Shown: piece after piece, positions 12,271 to 63,698 of the stretch
Layout of the letters: each line of letters opens with the position of its first letter
Position numbering within the stretch: position 1 is the first letter of the stretch
Source of the DNA: Burkholderia sp. BCC0506
Lineage (GTDB): Bacteria; Pseudomonadota; Gammaproteobacteria; Burkholderiales; Burkholderiaceae
Reading direction: 5' to 3'
Assembly: GCF_902833145.1 (NCBI RefSeq)
Contig: NZ_CADFEN010000012.1
Coordinates: forward strand, 186,001 to 250,000
DNA length: 64,000 nt
The notes under the pieces: model-generated
The model's database searches: none
What the model was told of the DNA's origin: nothing
Seen by the model: the letters and a program-made list of their open reading frames with translations, nothing else
Translations under genes and position numbers: made by a program

Positions 12271-12380
12271 CATCCCGCGGCCGTGCGGCGGCTACGGACC
12301 GGCGCGCCGCCGGGCGCCGCCATAGCGTCTACGATGTAAGACCGGCACCGGTGCCGGCACGACATCGAGGAGACAGCGCC

Positions 12381-12878
12381 ATGACCCCGCGTATCCAGCG
12401 CATCACGCCGTTCCTGTGGTTCGACCGCGACGCCGAGGCGGCGGCCGCTTTCTACGTATCGGTGTTCGACCACGCGCGCATCGTGCACGTCGCGCGCTAC
12501 GGCAAGGCCGGCGCGCACGCGTCCGGCAACGCCGAGGGCGCGGTGATGACCGTTGCGTTCGAGCTCGACGGGCAGGCGTTCGTCGCGCTGAACGGCGGCC
12601 CCGTGTTCCAGATGACGCCGGCCGTGTCGTTCGTCGTCAACTGCCGCGACCAGGGCGAGATCGACCATTACTGGGCGCGCCTGTCCGAAGGCGGCGACGA
12701 GCGCGCGCAGCAATGCGGCTGGCTGCGCGACCGCTTCGGCGTGTCGTGGCAGGTCGTGCCCGTGCAGATGGCCGAGCTGATGACGGGCGACCCGGCCCGC
12801 GCCGAGCGCGTGATGGCGCAGGTGATGACGATGAAGAAGCTCGATCTCGGCGCGCTGCAGCGGGCGGCGGCCGGCTAG
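12381..12878 (+). CDS. VOC-superfamily (PhnB-like) protein
   Basis: This protein of 165 aa has the PhnB-like / 3-demethylubiquinone-9 methyltransferase-like arrangement of the vicinal-oxygen-chelate fold: ITPFLWFDRDAEAAAAFYVSVF at the start, VAFELDGQAFVALNGGP in the middle and DRFGVSWQVVP near the end. Family members bind small substrates, and their reactions are rarely known. The start at 12381 is supported by GAGGAGACAGCGCC upstream. It is monocistronic, between a terminator and a 414-bp gap. Confidence 0.82.
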   Translation: MTPRIQRITPFLWFDRDAEAAAAFYVSVFDHARIVHVARYGKAGAHASGNAEGAVMTVAFELDGQAFVALNGGPVFQMTPAVSFVVNCRDQGEIDHYWARLSEGGDERAQQCGWLRDRFGVSWQVVPVQMAELMTGDPARAERVMAQVMTMKKLDLGALQRAAAG

Positions 12879-44615: not shown

Positions 44616-45956
44616 TCATTGAAGCTCGACGCGGCGGATCTCGCCGACGACGAACAGGTAGCAGATCACGGCGACGAGCGCGTGCGCGACGACATAGACG
44701 AGCGCGCCGTTGAACGAGCCGCTGCGATCGACGATATAGCCGATCGCGATCGGCGTCGTGATGCTGGAAAGGTTGCCGCACGTGTTGAGCAGCGCGCCGC
44801 TCAGGCCGGAGATCTGGCGCGGCGCGGTGTCGGCGTTGACGGCCCAGCCGAGCGCGCCGAGCCCCTTGCCGAAGAACGACAGCGCCATGAACAGCACGAC
44901 GAGCACGTGTGAATCGGTGTAGTTGCAGACGATCATCGACATCGACAGCAGCATGCCGATCACGATCGGCACCTTGCGCGCGACCGACAGCGACCGGCCC
45001 TGTCTGAGCAGCGCATCGGACACGACGCCGCCGAGAATCCCGCCGAGAAAGCCGCACACCGCCGGGATCGACGCGACGAGCCCCGCGTTGAGGATCGACA
45101 TCCCGCGCGCCTGTACGAGATAGACGGGAAACCACGTGATGAAGAAGTAGGTGAGCGCGTTGATGCAGTACTGCGCGACGTACACGCCGACCAGCATCCG
45201 GTTTCGCAGCAGCGCCTTCACGTGGCGCATCGACGGGCCGCCCTGGCGCCCGCCCGCCGCCTGGTCGATGTTGACGAGCGCGCCGCCTTCGGCGAGGTAG
45301 TCGAGTTCGGCGCGGTTGATGGTCGGGTGGTCCTTCGGGTCGTACATCGTGCGGTTCCACACCAGCACGAACGCGAAGCCGAGCACACCCATCACCGCGA
45401 ACACCGACTGCCAGCCGAACGCGTGCACGAGCCAGCCCATCAGCGGCGCGAACACGACGGTCGCCGCGTACTGCGCGGCGTTGAAGATCGCCGACGCGGT
45501 GCCGCGTTCGGGCGCCGGGAACCACGCGGACACGATCCGGCTGTTGGCCGGGAACGACGGCGCCTCGGCCGCGCCGACCAGGAAGCGCAGCCCGAACAGC
45601 AGCGCGAACGCGGCCGCGCCGCCGAAGAAGCCGATCCCGCCTTGCAGCAGCGTGAACAGCGACCAGAAGAAGATGCTGCATGCATAGACGATGCGCGATC
45701 CGTAGCGGTCGAGCAGCCAGCCGCCCGGCAGTTGCGCGATCACGTACGACCAGCCGAACGCGGAAAAGATGAAGCCCATCTGCACGTGGCTCAGGTGCAG
45801 CGCGCGGGCGAGGCTGGGCCCCGCGATCGCGATCGCCGCGCGATCTGCGTAGTTGATCGTCGTGACCGCGAACAGCACGGCCAGCACCAGCCAGCGCACG
45901 CGGGTGCGCCGGGCCGTTGCCGACGCGGACGCCGGCAGCGCGTGAAGCGGATTCAT
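44616..45956 (-). CDS. gudP: Glucarate/anion:cation symporter, MFS (GudP-like)
   Basis: This transporter of 446 aa has 12 helices, from the anion:cation symporter family that takes up hexuronates and hexarates. Typical parts: [26 protein letters not shown] (in part), [41 protein letters not shown]. The ATG at 45956 follows GGAGGAGA. It is co-transcribed with gudD, so glucarate or galactarate is the likely substrate. Confidence 0.9.
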
Positions 45957-46169
45957 GACGTGTCTCCTCCGAAGGGCGGAAGGTGCCGTCGGGCGGCAGG
46001 CGCGTCGGTGCGCGCGTGATGTATTGGGATGCCGCCGGCGCGAGGCCGGGCACCGGACGCCGTGCAGACGGTGCGTCCGGGCCATTCTGTCACGTCGACA
46101 TTTGCGCTTTCATGCCAATTGCTGACTTGATCGATTCAGCATTTGAATCGATCGGGACGAGGTGCGCGG

Positions 46170-58915: not shown

Positions 58916-59845
58916 TTGAATACGCGTGATCTCCAGGCGTTCGTCGCGGTCGTCGACAGCGGATCGATGGTCGCCGCGGCCGCGAAGCTCCACCTGACGC
59001 AGCCGGGCCTGACGCGGCGTGTGCAGAACCTCGAAACGCTGCTCGGCGTGCCGCTGCTCGAACGTCAGAGCAAGCCGCTGAAGCCGACCGCGGCGGGGCG
59101 CGACGTCTATGCGCTCGCGCGCAACGTGCTCGGCGCGGTCGACGAACTGATGGCGGCCGGCGCGCCGGACAGCGAGCCGTCCGGCGAGTTGCGCATCGGC
59201 GTGCCGCCGTTCCTGTCCGAGCTCGCGCTGGAGCGGCCGATCGACCGGCTGCGCGACGCGTTTCCGCGCCTCACGCTGCGCGTGACGGCCGGCTGGTCCC
59301 CCGCGCTGGTGCAGGGTATCGAGCGCGGTGCGCTCGACGTCGCGACCGTGATGGTGCCGGCGAGCGCGGCGCTGCCCGACGCGTTGACGGCGACGCTGCT
59401 CGCCACGCAGCCGACGGTGCTCGTCGCCGCGCGCGATTTCCCGCTGCCGGACGGCCCGCTGTCGCTCGATACGCTGTCGGGTTTTCCGTGGGTGCTGAGC
59501 CAGGACGGCTGCGGGATGCGTTCGGCGCTGAGCCGCGCGCTCGGCGCGGCCGGGCTGCCGTTCGACGTCGCGGTCGAGGCCTTCGGCTCGGAGCTGCAGT
59601 TGTCGCTCGTCGCGCGCGGCGCCGGGATCGGGATCGCCGCGCCGAACGCGCTCGCGCGCAGCGCGCATCGCGATGCGCTGAGGGTGGTGGAGACGGCGGG
59701 GCTGGAAACGCGGATCAACGTGTGGATCGTGCACGGCACGTTGCCGGGCCGGCTGATGCGGCCGGTCGCGCTGCTGCGCGACGCGCTGGGCGAGGTGCTC
59801 GAACGCGAGAATGGAAAGGGGTCAGGCGCCGTGACGCCGAACTAG
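58916..59845 (+). CDS. LysR-family transcriptional regulator
   Basis: This regulator of 309 aa has helix-turn-helix LQAFVAVVDSGSMVAAAAKLHLTQPGLTRRVQNLETLLG (in part) and a binding domain (GELRIGVPPFLSELALERPI). The TTG at 58916 starts MNTRDLQAF; there is no strong binding site. It is divergent from the MFS gene and is its likely regulator. Confidence 0.92.
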   Translation: MNTRDLQAFVAVVDSGSMVAAAAKLHLTQPGLTRRVQNLETLLGVPLLERQSKPLKPTAAGRDVYALARNVLGAVDELMAAGAPDSEPSGELRIGVPPFLSELALERPIDRLRDAFPRLTLRVTAGWSPALVQGIERGALDVATVMVPASAALPDALTATLLATQPTVLVAARDFPLPDGPLSLDTLSGFPWVLSQDGCGMRSALSRALGAAGLPFDVAVEAFGSELQLSLVARGAGIGIAAPNALARSAHRDALRVVETAGLETRINVWIVHGTLPGRLMRPVALLRDALGEVLERENGKGSGAVTPN

Positions 59846-59888
59846 AGGCGGCGTTCGAGGGAAAATCCTTATTTTCTCTACGGAAATG

Positions 59889-59917
59889 TTGCATTGCGGA
59901 AACCGATTCGCTATAGT
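59889..59917 (+). promoter_or_regulatory. Promoter of the candidate small RNA
   Basis: TTGCAT (59889-59894) and TATAGT (59912-59917) are separated by exactly 17 bp. Transcription should start near 59921-59924. No gene follows on this strand, only the short transcript ending at the terminator at 59956. Confidence 0.8.
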
Positions 59918-59920
59918 GAC

Positions 59921-59983
59921 ACCTGTCTCCTCCATGTCTCCTCTGATATGGATTCAGCCCGCCGCTTAGGCGGGCTTTTTTTT
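59921..59983 (+). ncRNA. Candidate small RNA with duplicated anti-Shine-Dalgarno motif
   Basis: This transcript would be about 60 nt, between a good promoter (59889-59917) and an intrinsic terminator. TGTCTCCTC occurs twice, at 59924-59932 and 59935-59943, in the single-stranded 5' part. CTCCTC is complementary to GAGGAG ribosome-binding sites. The 3' end is an AGCCCGCC/GGCGGGCT hairpin with a long T-tract, suited to Hfq binding. It has no coding capacity. Targets would be mRNAs with strong Shine-Dalgarno sequences. Confidence 0.75.
59956..59983 (+). terminator. Rho-independent terminator of the small RNA
   Basis: AGCCCGCC (59956-59963) and GGCGGGCT (59969-59976) flank GCTTA, with eight T from 59976. 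It could also end the LysR transcript. Confidence 0.96.
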
Positions 59984-60029
59984 GCCTGCGATTGTGTCGC
60001 GGCGCGCCATCCGCCGGCTGCCGCCGCGC

Positions 60030-60860
60030 TCAGAACTTGTACGTCATCCCGACGTAGCTGATGATCGGGTCTGCCTTCAGGTCCGATTTCGACTCGGCGA
60101 GCACCGAGCCGTCGGCTGCCTTGATCGTCACCGTCGACGTCGTCTTCAGCGGGATGTAGGTGACCGACGCCACCAGCCCGAAGTGTTCCGTCATGTTGTA
60201 CTGCAGGCCCGCGTTGAACACCGGCTGCCAGGACGACGACGCCTTCGCCTCCACCGAGGTCGTGCCCGGCTTGCCCGCGCCCGCGGCGAGGATCGCGCCG
60301 AGGTTGTCCTGCGTCTGCTTGATGAAGTTCGTGTTGAGCTGCAGGTCGCTGAACCAGTTGTACGACACGCCGAGGCCGAGGAACGGCCGGAACTTCGCGT
60401 TTGCCTGCCCGAAGTAGTACTGAAAGATCATCGCCGGGCTCCACTGCCGCACGCTTTTCACGATCGGGTTGACCGACGCCAGCCCGATGTTCTGCGTGCC
60501 GAGCGCGCCGGCCGGGCCGGGCGGCTTGATCGTGCCCCGGCCCGACACCTTGAACACCGGCGGCACGCCGGCCACCGACGTCACCGCGATGTGGTCGGTC
60601 AGGAAGTGGCTGACCGTCAGGCCGACCGTGTCGGCGCCGCTCGTATGCAGCCCGGTGCCCGGCGACGTGAACGACGGCGGCAGCCGCAGCGGCGTGTTGA
60701 TCGGCGTCGGCGCGACGTTGGTCGTCATCGGCGTGCTGCTTTGCTGCGGCATGATGTGGAACCAGCCCAGCGTGACGACGTTGCTGCCGGCGCTCTGCGC
60801 GTGCGCCGCCAGCGGCGCCACGGCGGCGGCTGCCGCCGCGCAGAGAAGGGTTTTCTTCAT
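60030..60860 (-). CDS. OmpW-family outer-membrane protein
   Basis: This is a small beta-barrel porin of 276 aa. The signal peptide ends AHA. The mature protein has alternating amphipathic strands with FRPFLGLGVSYNWFSD and HFGLVASVTYIPLKTT, and ends ISYVGMTYKF with the C-terminal Phe used for BAM-dependent assembly. The start may instead be GTG 60863, which is better spaced from GGAGGG. It is last in a minus-strand set with two related lipoproteins, 18 bp downstream of the second. Confidence 0.88.
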   Translation of the reverse strand: MKKTLLCAAAAAAVAPLAAHAQSAGSNVVTLGWFHIMPQQSSTPMTTNVAPTPINTPLRLPPSFTSPGTGLHTSGADTVGLTVSHFLTDHIAVTSVAGVPPVFKVSGRGTIKPPGPAGALGTQNIGLASVNPIVKSVRQWSPAMIFQYYFGQANAKFRPFLGLGVSYNWFSDLQLNTNFIKQTQDNLGAILAAGAGKPGTTSVEAKASSSWQPVFNAGLQYNMTEHFGLVASVTYIPLKTTSTVTIKAADGSVLAESKSDLKADPIISYVGMTYKF

Positions 60861-60878
60861 CACGGCTTGTCCCTCCGC

Positions 60879-62120
60879 TTACTGGACGAATGCGCCGATC
60901 GTGAAATACGGCGTCGATCCCGCGTTGTCGAGGAAACCGAACACGCCACCCGTGAAGATGAACTTGCCGGTCGGCGACGTGCTGCCCGAACCCGTGTGGA
61001 TCGTCGTGACCGTGCCCGGCACCTTCTGCGTGTAGTCGAGATCGAGCGCGGTCGCGAGCGACGCCTGCGACGGCTGGAACGGATCGAGCAGCGTGGCCTG
61101 CTTGTCGATCAGCGCGGTGGTCCGGTAATCGAACTGGCTGTCGACGCCGATGTACTCGCCGTTTTGCGAGCCGGCCGCGATGGCCGTCTGCGGCGCGAGG
61201 ATCGAGATGCTCGATTCGTCGTCGGCGGTCAGACCCGGCACGCCGTTGCTGTCGGGCGTCGGGTTCGGGTTCGCGACACCCGTGCGCACGAGGATCGGCA
61301 CGAGCTGGTTGCGCAGCTTGCCGACGATCATGAAGCCCTTGCCCTGCGGCGTGGCCGACAGCGTCGGCTTCAGCTGGCTCGCGTAGTTGTTCGACTGGAA
61401 CGCGCCGCTGCCGTCGGCCGACTGCACGAAGTTCGTGCCCTGCTGCACGCACGCGCCGCCCGCGAACTGGCCGGTCGTGTCGCATTTGGTCCACGTGCCG
61501 TCCGCGTTGATCGTCACCTTCGCGTCGATCGACGCCGGCGCGAATTTCTGCGACGGCACTTCGCCGAAGCCGATGTGGCTGTACGTGCCCGCAACCTTCG
61601 TGATGTCGGTTTCGATCGACGAGAAGCCGATGAACGGGTAGTACGGGAATTTCGTGTCGGGCACCGCGGCCTGGCCGAGCACGCCGTCGAACTGGATCTC
61701 CTTGCCGGGAATCGTGCCGCCCGCGACGCCGAAGCCGACGAAGATGCGCGCCGGACGCGACGCGTCGAGGCTCGCGCCGTTCAGGCGGAACGCGCACTGG
61801 TTCAGCTTGTTGGTCGGCAGCAGCGTTTCCTGCGTGAGCGTGCCGCTGTCGACGGTGCCCGCGCGGGTCGGCGTGACGGTGCCGGTCTTTTGCGGCACCG
61901 CCGATTCGACATAGGTGACCTGCCAGGTCATCTTGGTCGTGTCGAGCTGGACCTTCGCGAGTTCGCCGCTGCCCGCGCCGCCCGTAAACACGGTGTTGTA
62001 GTCGAGCGTGGCGGGGCAAAGCCGGTCTTCGACGAGCGGGGGCGGATTGTCGCTGCCGCCGCCGCATGCGGAAAGAAGGGGGGCGGCAAGGGCCGCCGCC
62101 AGAATGAGGTTGCGCTTCAT
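60879..62120 (-). CDS. DUF2957-like lipoprotein (second copy)
   Basis: This lipoprotein of 413 aa has lipobox LLSAC followed by GGGSDNPPP. The body is beta-rich, with NTVFTGGAGSGEL and KTGTVTPTRAGTVDSGTLT. It matches its upstream neighbour at many places, so the two arose by duplication. I assign DUF2957 from memory; the function is unknown. Its stop lies 18 bp before the OmpW start, suggesting a joint outer-membrane role. Confidence 0.78.
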   Translation of the reverse strand: MKRNLILAAALAAPLLSACGGGSDNPPPLVEDRLCPATLDYNTVFTGGAGSGELAKVQLDTTKMTWQVTYVESAVPQKTGTVTPTRAGTVDSGTLTQETLLPTNKLNQCAFRLNGASLDASRPARIFVGFGVAGGTIPGKEIQFDGVLGQAAVPDTKFPYYPFIGFSSIETDITKVAGTYSHIGFGEVPSQKFAPASIDAKVTINADGTWTKCDTTGQFAGGACVQQGTNFVQSADGSGAFQSNNYASQLKPTLSATPQGKGFMIVGKLRNQLVPILVRTGVANPNPTPDSNGVPGLTADDESSISILAPQTAIAAGSQNGEYIGVDSQFDYRTTALIDKQATLLDPFQPSQASLATALDLDYTQKVPGTVTTIHTGSGSTSPTGKFIFTGGVFGFLDNAGSTPYFTIGAFVQ

Positions 62121-62267
62121 GTTGCTCCTCCAGATTTGTCTTGTGCGGCGGCCAGCTCCCTGTCGGCCGCTTCTGTTTGGTCGTGCTCGTCCTGCTTGCG
62201 CCGTGCCGAGCGCCTTCGTGCCATCCCTGCGTCACGCGGCGGCGGGCCGGCCGCCGCCGCGTCCCCG

Positions 62268-63698
62268 TTACTTGCTGATCTGCGCGCCCACGCCGAAGTA
62301 CGGTGTCGACGACGTCGTCGAATTCGCCGACGTCGACGTGACGCCGCCGTTCACCGTGCCTTGGATCAGCGCCGCGTACAGCCCGCCCGTCGCGATCACC
62401 ACGCCCGATGCGGACGGGTAGCTCGCGCCGCTCGGCGGGGTGGTCGTCGTGTTCAGCAGGCCCGGCGTCGTCTGCCCGTAGTCGAGCGTGAAGCCGTCTT
62501 CCTCGGCCTGCGTGGACGGGTTGATGAACGACGCGTTGCTGCCGCGGATCAGCGCGGCCGTGTACTTGAAGTTCGAGTCCGCGCCCGCGTAGCCGCCGTC
62601 GATCGCGCCCGACGTGATCGCCGTCGCCGCGCCGAGCACCGCGATGCCCGATTCGTCGTCGACCTTTGCATCGGTGTGCAACGGCGCCGTGCCGAGGTTC
62701 ACATAGCCCGTGCGCACGATCACCGGCACCGTCGCGCCGTTGAGCTGGCCGATCACCATGTGCGCGGTGGCCGACTTGCCGGTCGCGCCGATCAGCGGCA
62801 GCTTCGTTTGCGGCAGGATCTGCGGGGCCTGCGTGCTGTCGAGGTAGCCGCCGGCCGCTGCATTCACCGTCCACGGATTGCCGGTCGTCTGGCAACTGCC
62901 GGAGGACGACGTGCACGCGCCGTTCGCATCGAACGTCTCGCTGGAGTTGATGCCCTTCGTCGCGTAGTTGCCCGACGGCACGAGGTGATAGATCAGCGCG
63001 TTGTACGTGCCCGGCAGCTTCGTCAGGTCGGTCGTCGTGTTCGCGAAGCCGAGGAACGGATAGAAGTCGAAGTGGCGATTGGGCACCTGGCCGACGTTCT
63101 GGAATACCGGGAGGCCGACCACGCTGATCGTCAGCCCGTCGTACTGAACCGTCGCGCCGGGAATGCCGCCGCCCGCCACGCCCATGCCGACCAGCAGCAT
63201 CGGCGGGTTCGCCTGGTTGAAGTCGGCGGCCGTCGAATAGGTCGAGCCGTCCGGTGCGGTGCCCGTGCCCGGCGTGAGGACGAACGCGCAGCGCGTCTGC
63301 TCGGCGGTCGGCAGCGTGCCGGTCGGCGGGTGGACGACCTTGCCGGTGATCGTCGTGCCGGCGCGGCTCGGCGTGACGGTGCCCGTCTTCAGCGGAATCG
63401 GCGATTCGAGCCACTTGAGCGTGTACGTCATCGCGACCGCGTCGATGTTGACGCTGACGATCTCGCCGCTACCCGCGCCGCCGAGGTACGTGCTCTTCAC
63501 GATGTCCGCGGTGGCCGGGCACAGTGCGCCGTTGATGGGCTGCGAAGGCGGCGGCCCTTGCGTGCCGCAGCTCGAGCCGGAACATTGGGGCGCATTGATC
63601 GGCGCGAGCGCGCCGCCGGAGTCCCCCCCACCACATGCAACCAGGAAAGGGGCAATGGCAAAGGCCGTTGCCACCCCCTTCGATAAGGCGTGCGACAT
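62268..63698 (-). CDS. DUF2957-like lipoprotein (first copy)
   Basis: This lipoprotein of 476 aa has lipobox FLVAC then GGGDSGG. STYLGGAGSGEIVSVNID and PLKTGTVTPSRAGTTITG mirror the second copy, and GVAGGGIPGATVQYDG matches its GVAGGTIPGKEIQFDG. It is longer by about 60 residues, with a Cys-rich linker (PQCSGSSCGTQ) after the lipid anchor. 147 bp separate it from the second copy. Confidence 0.78.
   Translation of the reverse strand: MSHALSKGVATAFAIAPFLVACGGGDSGGALAPINAPQCSGSSCGTQGPPPSQPINGALCPATADIVKSTYLGGAGSGEIVSVNIDAVAMTYTLKWLESPIPLKTGTVTPSRAGTTITGKVVHPPTGTLPTAEQTRCAFVLTPGTGTAPDGSTYSTAADFNQANPPMLLVGMGVAGGGIPGATVQYDGLTISVVGLPVFQNVGQVPNRHFDFYPFLGFANTTTDLTKLPGTYNALIYHLVPSGNYATKGINSSETFDANGACTSSSGSCQTTGNPWTVNAAAGGYLDSTQAPQILPQTKLPLIGATGKSATAHMVIGQLNGATVPVIVRTGYVNLGTAPLHTDAKVDDESGIAVLGAATAITSGAIDGGYAGADSNFKYTAALIRGSNASFINPSTQAEEDGFTLDYGQTTPGLLNTTTTPPSGASYPSASGVVIATGGLYAALIQGTVNGGVTSTSANSTTSSTPYFGVGAQISK

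Follow-up and report, generated by a model that had tools for sequence, protein, structure and literature searches.

The small RNA locus and its conservation

The window analysed here is a 64,000-nucleotide stretch of the genome of Burkholderia sp. BCC0506. Towards its end, an intergenic region of 184 bases separates a gene for a LysR-type regulator (58916-59845, forward strand; Pfam HTH_1 and LysR_substrate) from a convergent downstream gene for an OmpW family protein (60030-60863, reverse strand; Pfam OmpW). Two adjacent paralog-like genes lie beside the OmpW gene on the reverse strand (60879-63698), the first assigned to DUF2957 and the second judged by eye. Within the intergenic region, the covariance model RF02278 (Betaproteobacteria toxic small RNA) matches positions 59924-59983 of the forward strand across its entire length (model positions 1-64 of 64) with 75.3 bits, against a gathering score of 50 bits. 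The first-pass annotation had proposed a small RNA with anti-Shine-Dalgarno motifs at this place. The match bears this out, and occlusion of ribosome sites is the published model for RNAs of this family; the window copy is an already known kind of small RNA.

The 5' end of the RNA was placed by promoter spacing and the Rfam boundary, which gives a predicted length of 60 nt. The promoter boxes named in the first-pass annotation are present: a -10-like TATAGT (59912-59917, forward strand; 96% mean identity among 31 copies) and, across a 17-nt spacer (59895-59911), a -35-like TTGCAT (59889-59894, forward strand; 90% mean identity among Burkholderia copies), which is weak, matching the consensus TTGACA at 3 of 6 positions. 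A scan of 59000-61000 for consensus promoters listed none at all, that of the small RNA included. The -35 box is preceded by a conserved block on the forward strand (59853-59888), of which positions 59871-59888 show 98.7% mean identity among the 31 Burkholderia copies. Conservation of this strength makes a regulator site or an UP element likely, and a common upstream motif is described for three of four homologues (Sass 2017).

The RNA begins with two copies of the motif TGTCTCCTC, at 59924-59932 and 59935-59943 (forward strand), 11 nt apart from start to start as had been claimed. This motif is strongly overrepresented in the window, with four copies against 0.26 expected, a count reached by none of 100 shuffles. 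The predicted fold of 59921-59990 has an energy of -28.6 kcal/mol (z -5.03), and none of 200 shuffles folded equally low. It comprises two hairpins on the forward strand: hairpin 1 (59931-59952), with 8 pairs and the loop UCCUCU, and an intrinsic terminator (59956-59984) formed by a stem at 59956-59976 and the T tract that follows. The 5' half had been regarded as exposed, which holds for motif 1, mostly single-stranded in the fold; motif 2 lies half in the stem of hairpin 1 and half in its apical loop, where UCCUCU is presented. The layout of two hairpins with the second acting as intrinsic terminator, and the CU-rich complements of ribosome sites at the 5' end and in hairpin 1, are both characteristic of RF02278. 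The terminator with its long U tract is compatible with Hfq dependence.

The intergenic region has a match in all 62 genomes of the genus searched, and RF02278 scores above its cut-off in each of them, with 3-7 matches per genome; a covariance search in other Burkholderia had been suggested as a check, as had conservation of motif and promoter in relatives. When 30 loci from titled genomes were aligned with the window, all 31 Burkholderia copies thus compared proved identical throughout the 5' 31 nt of the RNA (59924-59954), against 63% identity in the downstream flank. Outside Burkholderia, 12 loci of LysR relatives (including one under the title Burkholderia sp. H160), with flanks of at most 3 kb, were searched with model R1, described below. 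None carries the small RNA directly downstream, and the sole match, in Trinickia, lies 2.8 kb further on.

Probable orthology with ncS03 and paralogs in the genome

Four members of the family have been published from B. cenocepacia J2315, namely ncS03, ncS05, NcS27 and ncS62 (PMC5688073, PMC4603805). The ncS03 transcript was mapped in J2315 and is described as 58-59 nt long, located on replicon 1 with the flank orientation -> -> <- about 52 kb after an SAH riboswitch (PMC5688073, PMC4603805). The window RNA shows the same flank orientation, and the SAH riboswitch of the window (RF01057, 20075-20200; 52.3 bits) precedes it by about 40 kb. Since length, flank orientation and riboswitch linkage all agree, the window copy is most likely the ortholog of ncS03 (RIT100), to which it also conforms in family; the comparison with the published description of ncS03 revealed no differences. 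The comparison with published Burkholderia small RNAs that the first-pass annotation had called for thus leads to ncS03, and its mention of NcS27 proves right in kind, RF02278 taking in both NcS27 and the window segment, yet not as to the individual RNA. The locus assigned to the NcS27 group is beside rplM-rpsI, and in the BCC0506 genome that place is occupied by another copy (G000:C15:143974-144035). The ncS62 RNA shares the flank orientation of ncS03 but resides on replicon 2 (PMC4603805). On the basis of the published J2315 coordinates and of synteny in other species, the window RNA is a probable ncS03 ortholog and a paralog of NcS27.

The BCC0506 genome contains six RF02278 matches at unlike loci, four of them above the cut-off, in keeping with the multi-copy occurrence of the family in Burkholderia genomes. 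By our tentative assignment, a 68-nt copy (C6) fits ncS05, the copy upstream of rplM (C15) fits NcS27, and a 58-nt copy (C10) may be ncS62; the remaining two (C17 and C5) fall below the cut-off. The contigs bearing the C10 and C17 copies both start with the same ISL3-family transposase gene end (L004 1-110 and L005 1-100), within about 10 bases of the T tract of the small RNA, and such terminators may be favoured by the insertion sequence. Copies of the small RNA were also found on 30 plasmid records from Paraburkholderia, Caballeronia and Burkholderia, 29 of the 30 at 80-95% identity, and five of these records are predicted to be conjugative. A search of plasmids by blastn with one gammaproteobacterial copy found nothing, and among 50,697 phage records none matched the small RNA. 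Copy numbers reach nine and eight RF02278 matches per genome (G342 and G390), and adjacent pairs or triples of copies occur in G189:C83, G294:C3 and G313:C3, those in G294:C3 scoring only about 30 bits.

A family element upstream of rplM-rpsI

GTDB places Betaproteobacteria inside the class Gammaproteobacteria. We searched 276 genomes drawn over this GTDB class with RF02278 and obtained matches in 78, of which three, all from Burkholderiales, exceeded the cut-off. In the 75 matching genomes from other orders every match remained below it. In 49 of these 75, nevertheless, a match precedes rplM in the same orientation, at a distance of 126-727 nt from the L13 domain; a random match would land there with a chance of about 2.5e-4. 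Altogether 50 of the 89 matches in the class sample lie before rplM, the BCC0506 genome being left out of this tally. The other 26 of the 75 genomes have no match before rplM, three of them yielding no L13 match in the search either, and neither of two Burkholderiales genomes in the class sample has one. In a separate sample of 70 Burkholderiales genomes, 46 match RF02278; 23 of the 46, BCC0506 included, have a match before rplM and 23 have none.

The rplM-linked copies of the two groups share sequence as well as place. Their first 34 nt contain CTCCTCCA in 44 of 49 copies outside Burkholderiales and in 22 of 23 within, while ATCCTCCTTTGGTGG is found in 29 of the 49 rplM-linked copies outside the order and in none of the 23 within. 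The helices, named by hand, are 95.7% paired in the family alignment. Double-change cells number 121 in them, compared with 25 in shuffles, and all of the 121 except one belong to the terminator. Hairpin 1 is 96.9% paired but varies little, with changes on both sides in only one of its five pairs, so that nearly all of the covariation stems from the terminator; RNAalifold applied to the alignment (A1) does not predict this hairpin by itself.

The 49 elements from other orders and the 23 from Burkholderiales were combined into the model R1. In all 72 genomes the element has the orientation of the L13 domain match and precedes it by 120-727 nt. R1 matches 127 of the 276 class genomes and scores at least 42 bits in 94 of the 273 outside Burkholderiales, 49 of which are members of the model. 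Downstream sequence was examined in 44 of the other 45: L13 follows on the same strand in 18 of them, and 26 have no same-strand L13 within about 1.2 kb (two of these end at a contig end). Among 249 genomes sampled over the phylum, R1 matched 19 that belong to the class but not to the order; only two of these 19 exceed 40 bits (G123 and G193), so the distribution of the family is patchy. A further 19 genomes of this sample, from outside the class, gave weak matches of 37.2 bits at best, which look like terminator noise. No R1 match was found upstream of rplM in E. coli, and 23 further order-level rplM loci hold no R1 copy (24 were given, the sole strong match, L159, having already been counted).

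A midpoint-rooted tree of L13 and S9, built from 30 class rows, 31 Burkholderiales rows including BCC0506 and E. coli, sets Burkholderiales apart with 100/100 support and has moderate support outside that clade. E. coli groups with 28 of the 30 class rows, which makes most of these rows classical Gammaproteobacteria; the other two lie on the Burkholderiales side of the root, outside the Burkholderiales clade. The probable NcS27 counterpart in BCC0506 likewise precedes rplM-rpsI, separated from rplM by a DUF1090-like gene of the opposite strand. In J2315, BCAL3348 is listed among the ribosomal-protein genes next to short 5'UTRs (Sass 2017), and by its number it adjoins BCAL3348a, the neighbour of NcS27. 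The shared place and shared sequence in both groups suggest one old family anchored at rplM-rpsI, and the copies elsewhere in the genomes suggest that its RNAs act in trans.

Proposed action, alternatives and known relatives

The published model for these 'double-hairpin' RNAs has their CU-rich stretches occlude ribosome sites, and the predicted targets of ncS03 are enriched in organic acid transport (PMC5688073). For S17 of Bordetella, coprecipitation with Hfq and direct repression of a target, supported by compensatory mutations, are reported (PMC11722255). The family owes its name to growth inhibition of E. coli when its members are expressed (PMC5688073, PMC4603805), and overexpression of NcS27 slows growth (PMC5688073).

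In the window, sites complementary to the 9-nt motif number only two, the small RNA itself aside, and each precedes a start codon. One is GGAGGAGACA before the ATG of a D-galactonate-type MFS transporter (45954-45970, reverse strand; assigned with 454 bits against a cut-off of 395), whose start codon was chosen by its Shine-Dalgarno site; the frame that follows is glucarate dehydratase-like (740 bits, short of the cut-off, which is 829). The other is GAGGAGACA before the ATG of a glyoxalase-fold 3-dmu-9_3-mt protein (12367-12383, forward strand). Both are predicted targets, with duplex energies of -24.3 and -26.7 kcal/mol, respectively, each matched or beaten by 3 of 500 shuffles. An organic-acid transporter as a predicted target fits the published target class of ncS03. 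The start-site complement of UGUCUCCUC is GAGGAGACA-N0-4-ATG; across the genome it is present 12 times, against once for the pattern read backwards. The suggestion that several genes of the window with GGAGG sites are targets finds no such support: GGAGG-N4-10-ATG start sites are at chance level in the window (7 against an expected 8.79), and GAGGAGA is not enriched there either (6 found, 5.74 expected).

We propose that the conserved promoter would give rise to a short transcript of about 60 nt with the free 5' end UGUCUCCUCC, followed by a small hairpin, whose loop and adjoining bases would present the second CUCCUC, and by the intrinsic terminator. By pairing with Shine-Dalgarno sites (GAGGAGACA and similar), the two motifs would keep ribosomes from binding many mRNAs, chiefly those whose products take up and break down organic acids, sugars and amino acids. 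We infer that the window copy is expressed, acts on such targets and depends on Hfq.

The segment follows closely on the stop codon of the LysR gene (59845) and ends in a terminator, as would be expected if it were a mere terminator of that gene with a CU-rich stretch arisen by chance. The RF02278 score, the identity of 59924-59954 in all 31 copies and the six RF02278 matches at unlike loci of the genome, four of them above the cut-off, leave this explanation with practically no probability, and we reject it. More plausible, albeit still unlikely, is that the RNA is a general anti-Shine-Dalgarno mimic which competes for any Shine-Dalgarno site and brakes growth without defined targets. The first 34 nt of 37 of the 49 rplM-linked copies outside Burkholderiales contain CCTCCTTT, much like the 16S tail (GGATCACCTCCTT in BCC0506), and the growth effects of the family and of NcS27 agree with such a role. 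However, the toxicity of overexpression may be due to dose, the ncS03-type motif UGUCUCCUCC is longer than the 16S-like core, and direct repression of an S17 target was demonstrated by compensatory mutation.

A slightly better case, though one we also consider improbable, can be made for the element at rplM being mainly a cis-acting leader or attenuator of rplM-rpsI, its short RNA a by-product, with the dispersed copies recruited later as trans-acting RNAs. The element's strand and constant place before L13 in the 72 genomes, its terminal terminator and the listing of BCAL3348 next to short 5'UTRs are what a leader would show. Against this stand the 26 of 44 genomes outside the model with no same-strand L13 within about 1.2 kb downstream, the opposite-strand DUF1090-like gene between the copy and rplM in BCC0506, and the fact that it is the anti-Shine-Dalgarno core that is conserved.

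We therefore consider it very likely that the window feature, a member of RF02278 and probable ortholog of ncS03, is a small RNA of some 60 nt which acts in trans by masking Shine-Dalgarno sites; by ancestry it is probably a dispersed paralog of a family anchored at rplM-rpsI. With good though lesser confidence, we regard RF02278 as a single branch of a family of anti-Shine-Dalgarno small RNAs that is older and more widespread and belongs to the Gammaproteobacteria as GTDB defines them (the classical Beta- and Gammaproteobacteria together), with its anchor upstream of rplM-rpsI and with paralogs scattered elsewhere in Burkholderia genomes. Ribosomal-protein genes would thus have as their neighbour an RNA resembling the 16S anti-Shine-Dalgarno tail, through which the supply of ribosomes could be linked to a global masking of ribosome sites. 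The window feature itself was already known; what is new is the extent of the family and its probable anchor locus. No report of a gammaproteobacterial or rplM-linked member was found in the literature searched; an RF02278 RNA is annotated in the gammaproteobacterium Aeromonas salmonicida J223 (PMC8780938). The beta-only name and the cut-off of the Rfam family hide a conserved small RNA-like element in many Gammaproteobacteria. The link to rplM-rpsI offers a testable idea, that translation initiation may be braked in step with ribosome synthesis, and a wider family would open the study of this RNA outside Burkholderia and Bordetella.

Alphaproteobacterial anti-Shine-Dalgarno small RNAs, the cuckoo RNAs and NfeR1, place CU-rich loops over Shine-Dalgarno sites. 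Their resemblance to the window RNA is one of working, drawn by description only, and no genome outside the class exceeds 37.2 bits with R1. Closer relatives are Hsnc059, Hsnc063, Hsnc086 and Hsnc107 of Herbaspirillum seropedicae, members of RF02278 by Rfam score as is the window copy, with longer predicted transcripts of 93-115 nt. S17/S17S of Bordetella pertussis shares with the window RNA the single-stranded complements of ribosome sites and the terminator, and a mismatch of 2 nt to one Burkholderia member is reported. It differs in that RNase E generates it from a precursor of 190 nt, in its dependence on BvgA and in the scant toxicity of S17S in E. coli BL21 (PMC11722255). The literature covered also includes PMC10987360, PMC7011215, PMC10175445 and PMC6321483. 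NcS27 of B. cenocepacia, the paralog of the window copy, belongs to the same family and has the same two hairpins and CU-rich stretches, but occupies a different locus, its likely counterpart in BCC0506 lying upstream of rplM, and at 92 nt is a longer RNA that can be processed, compared with the 60 nt of the window copy.
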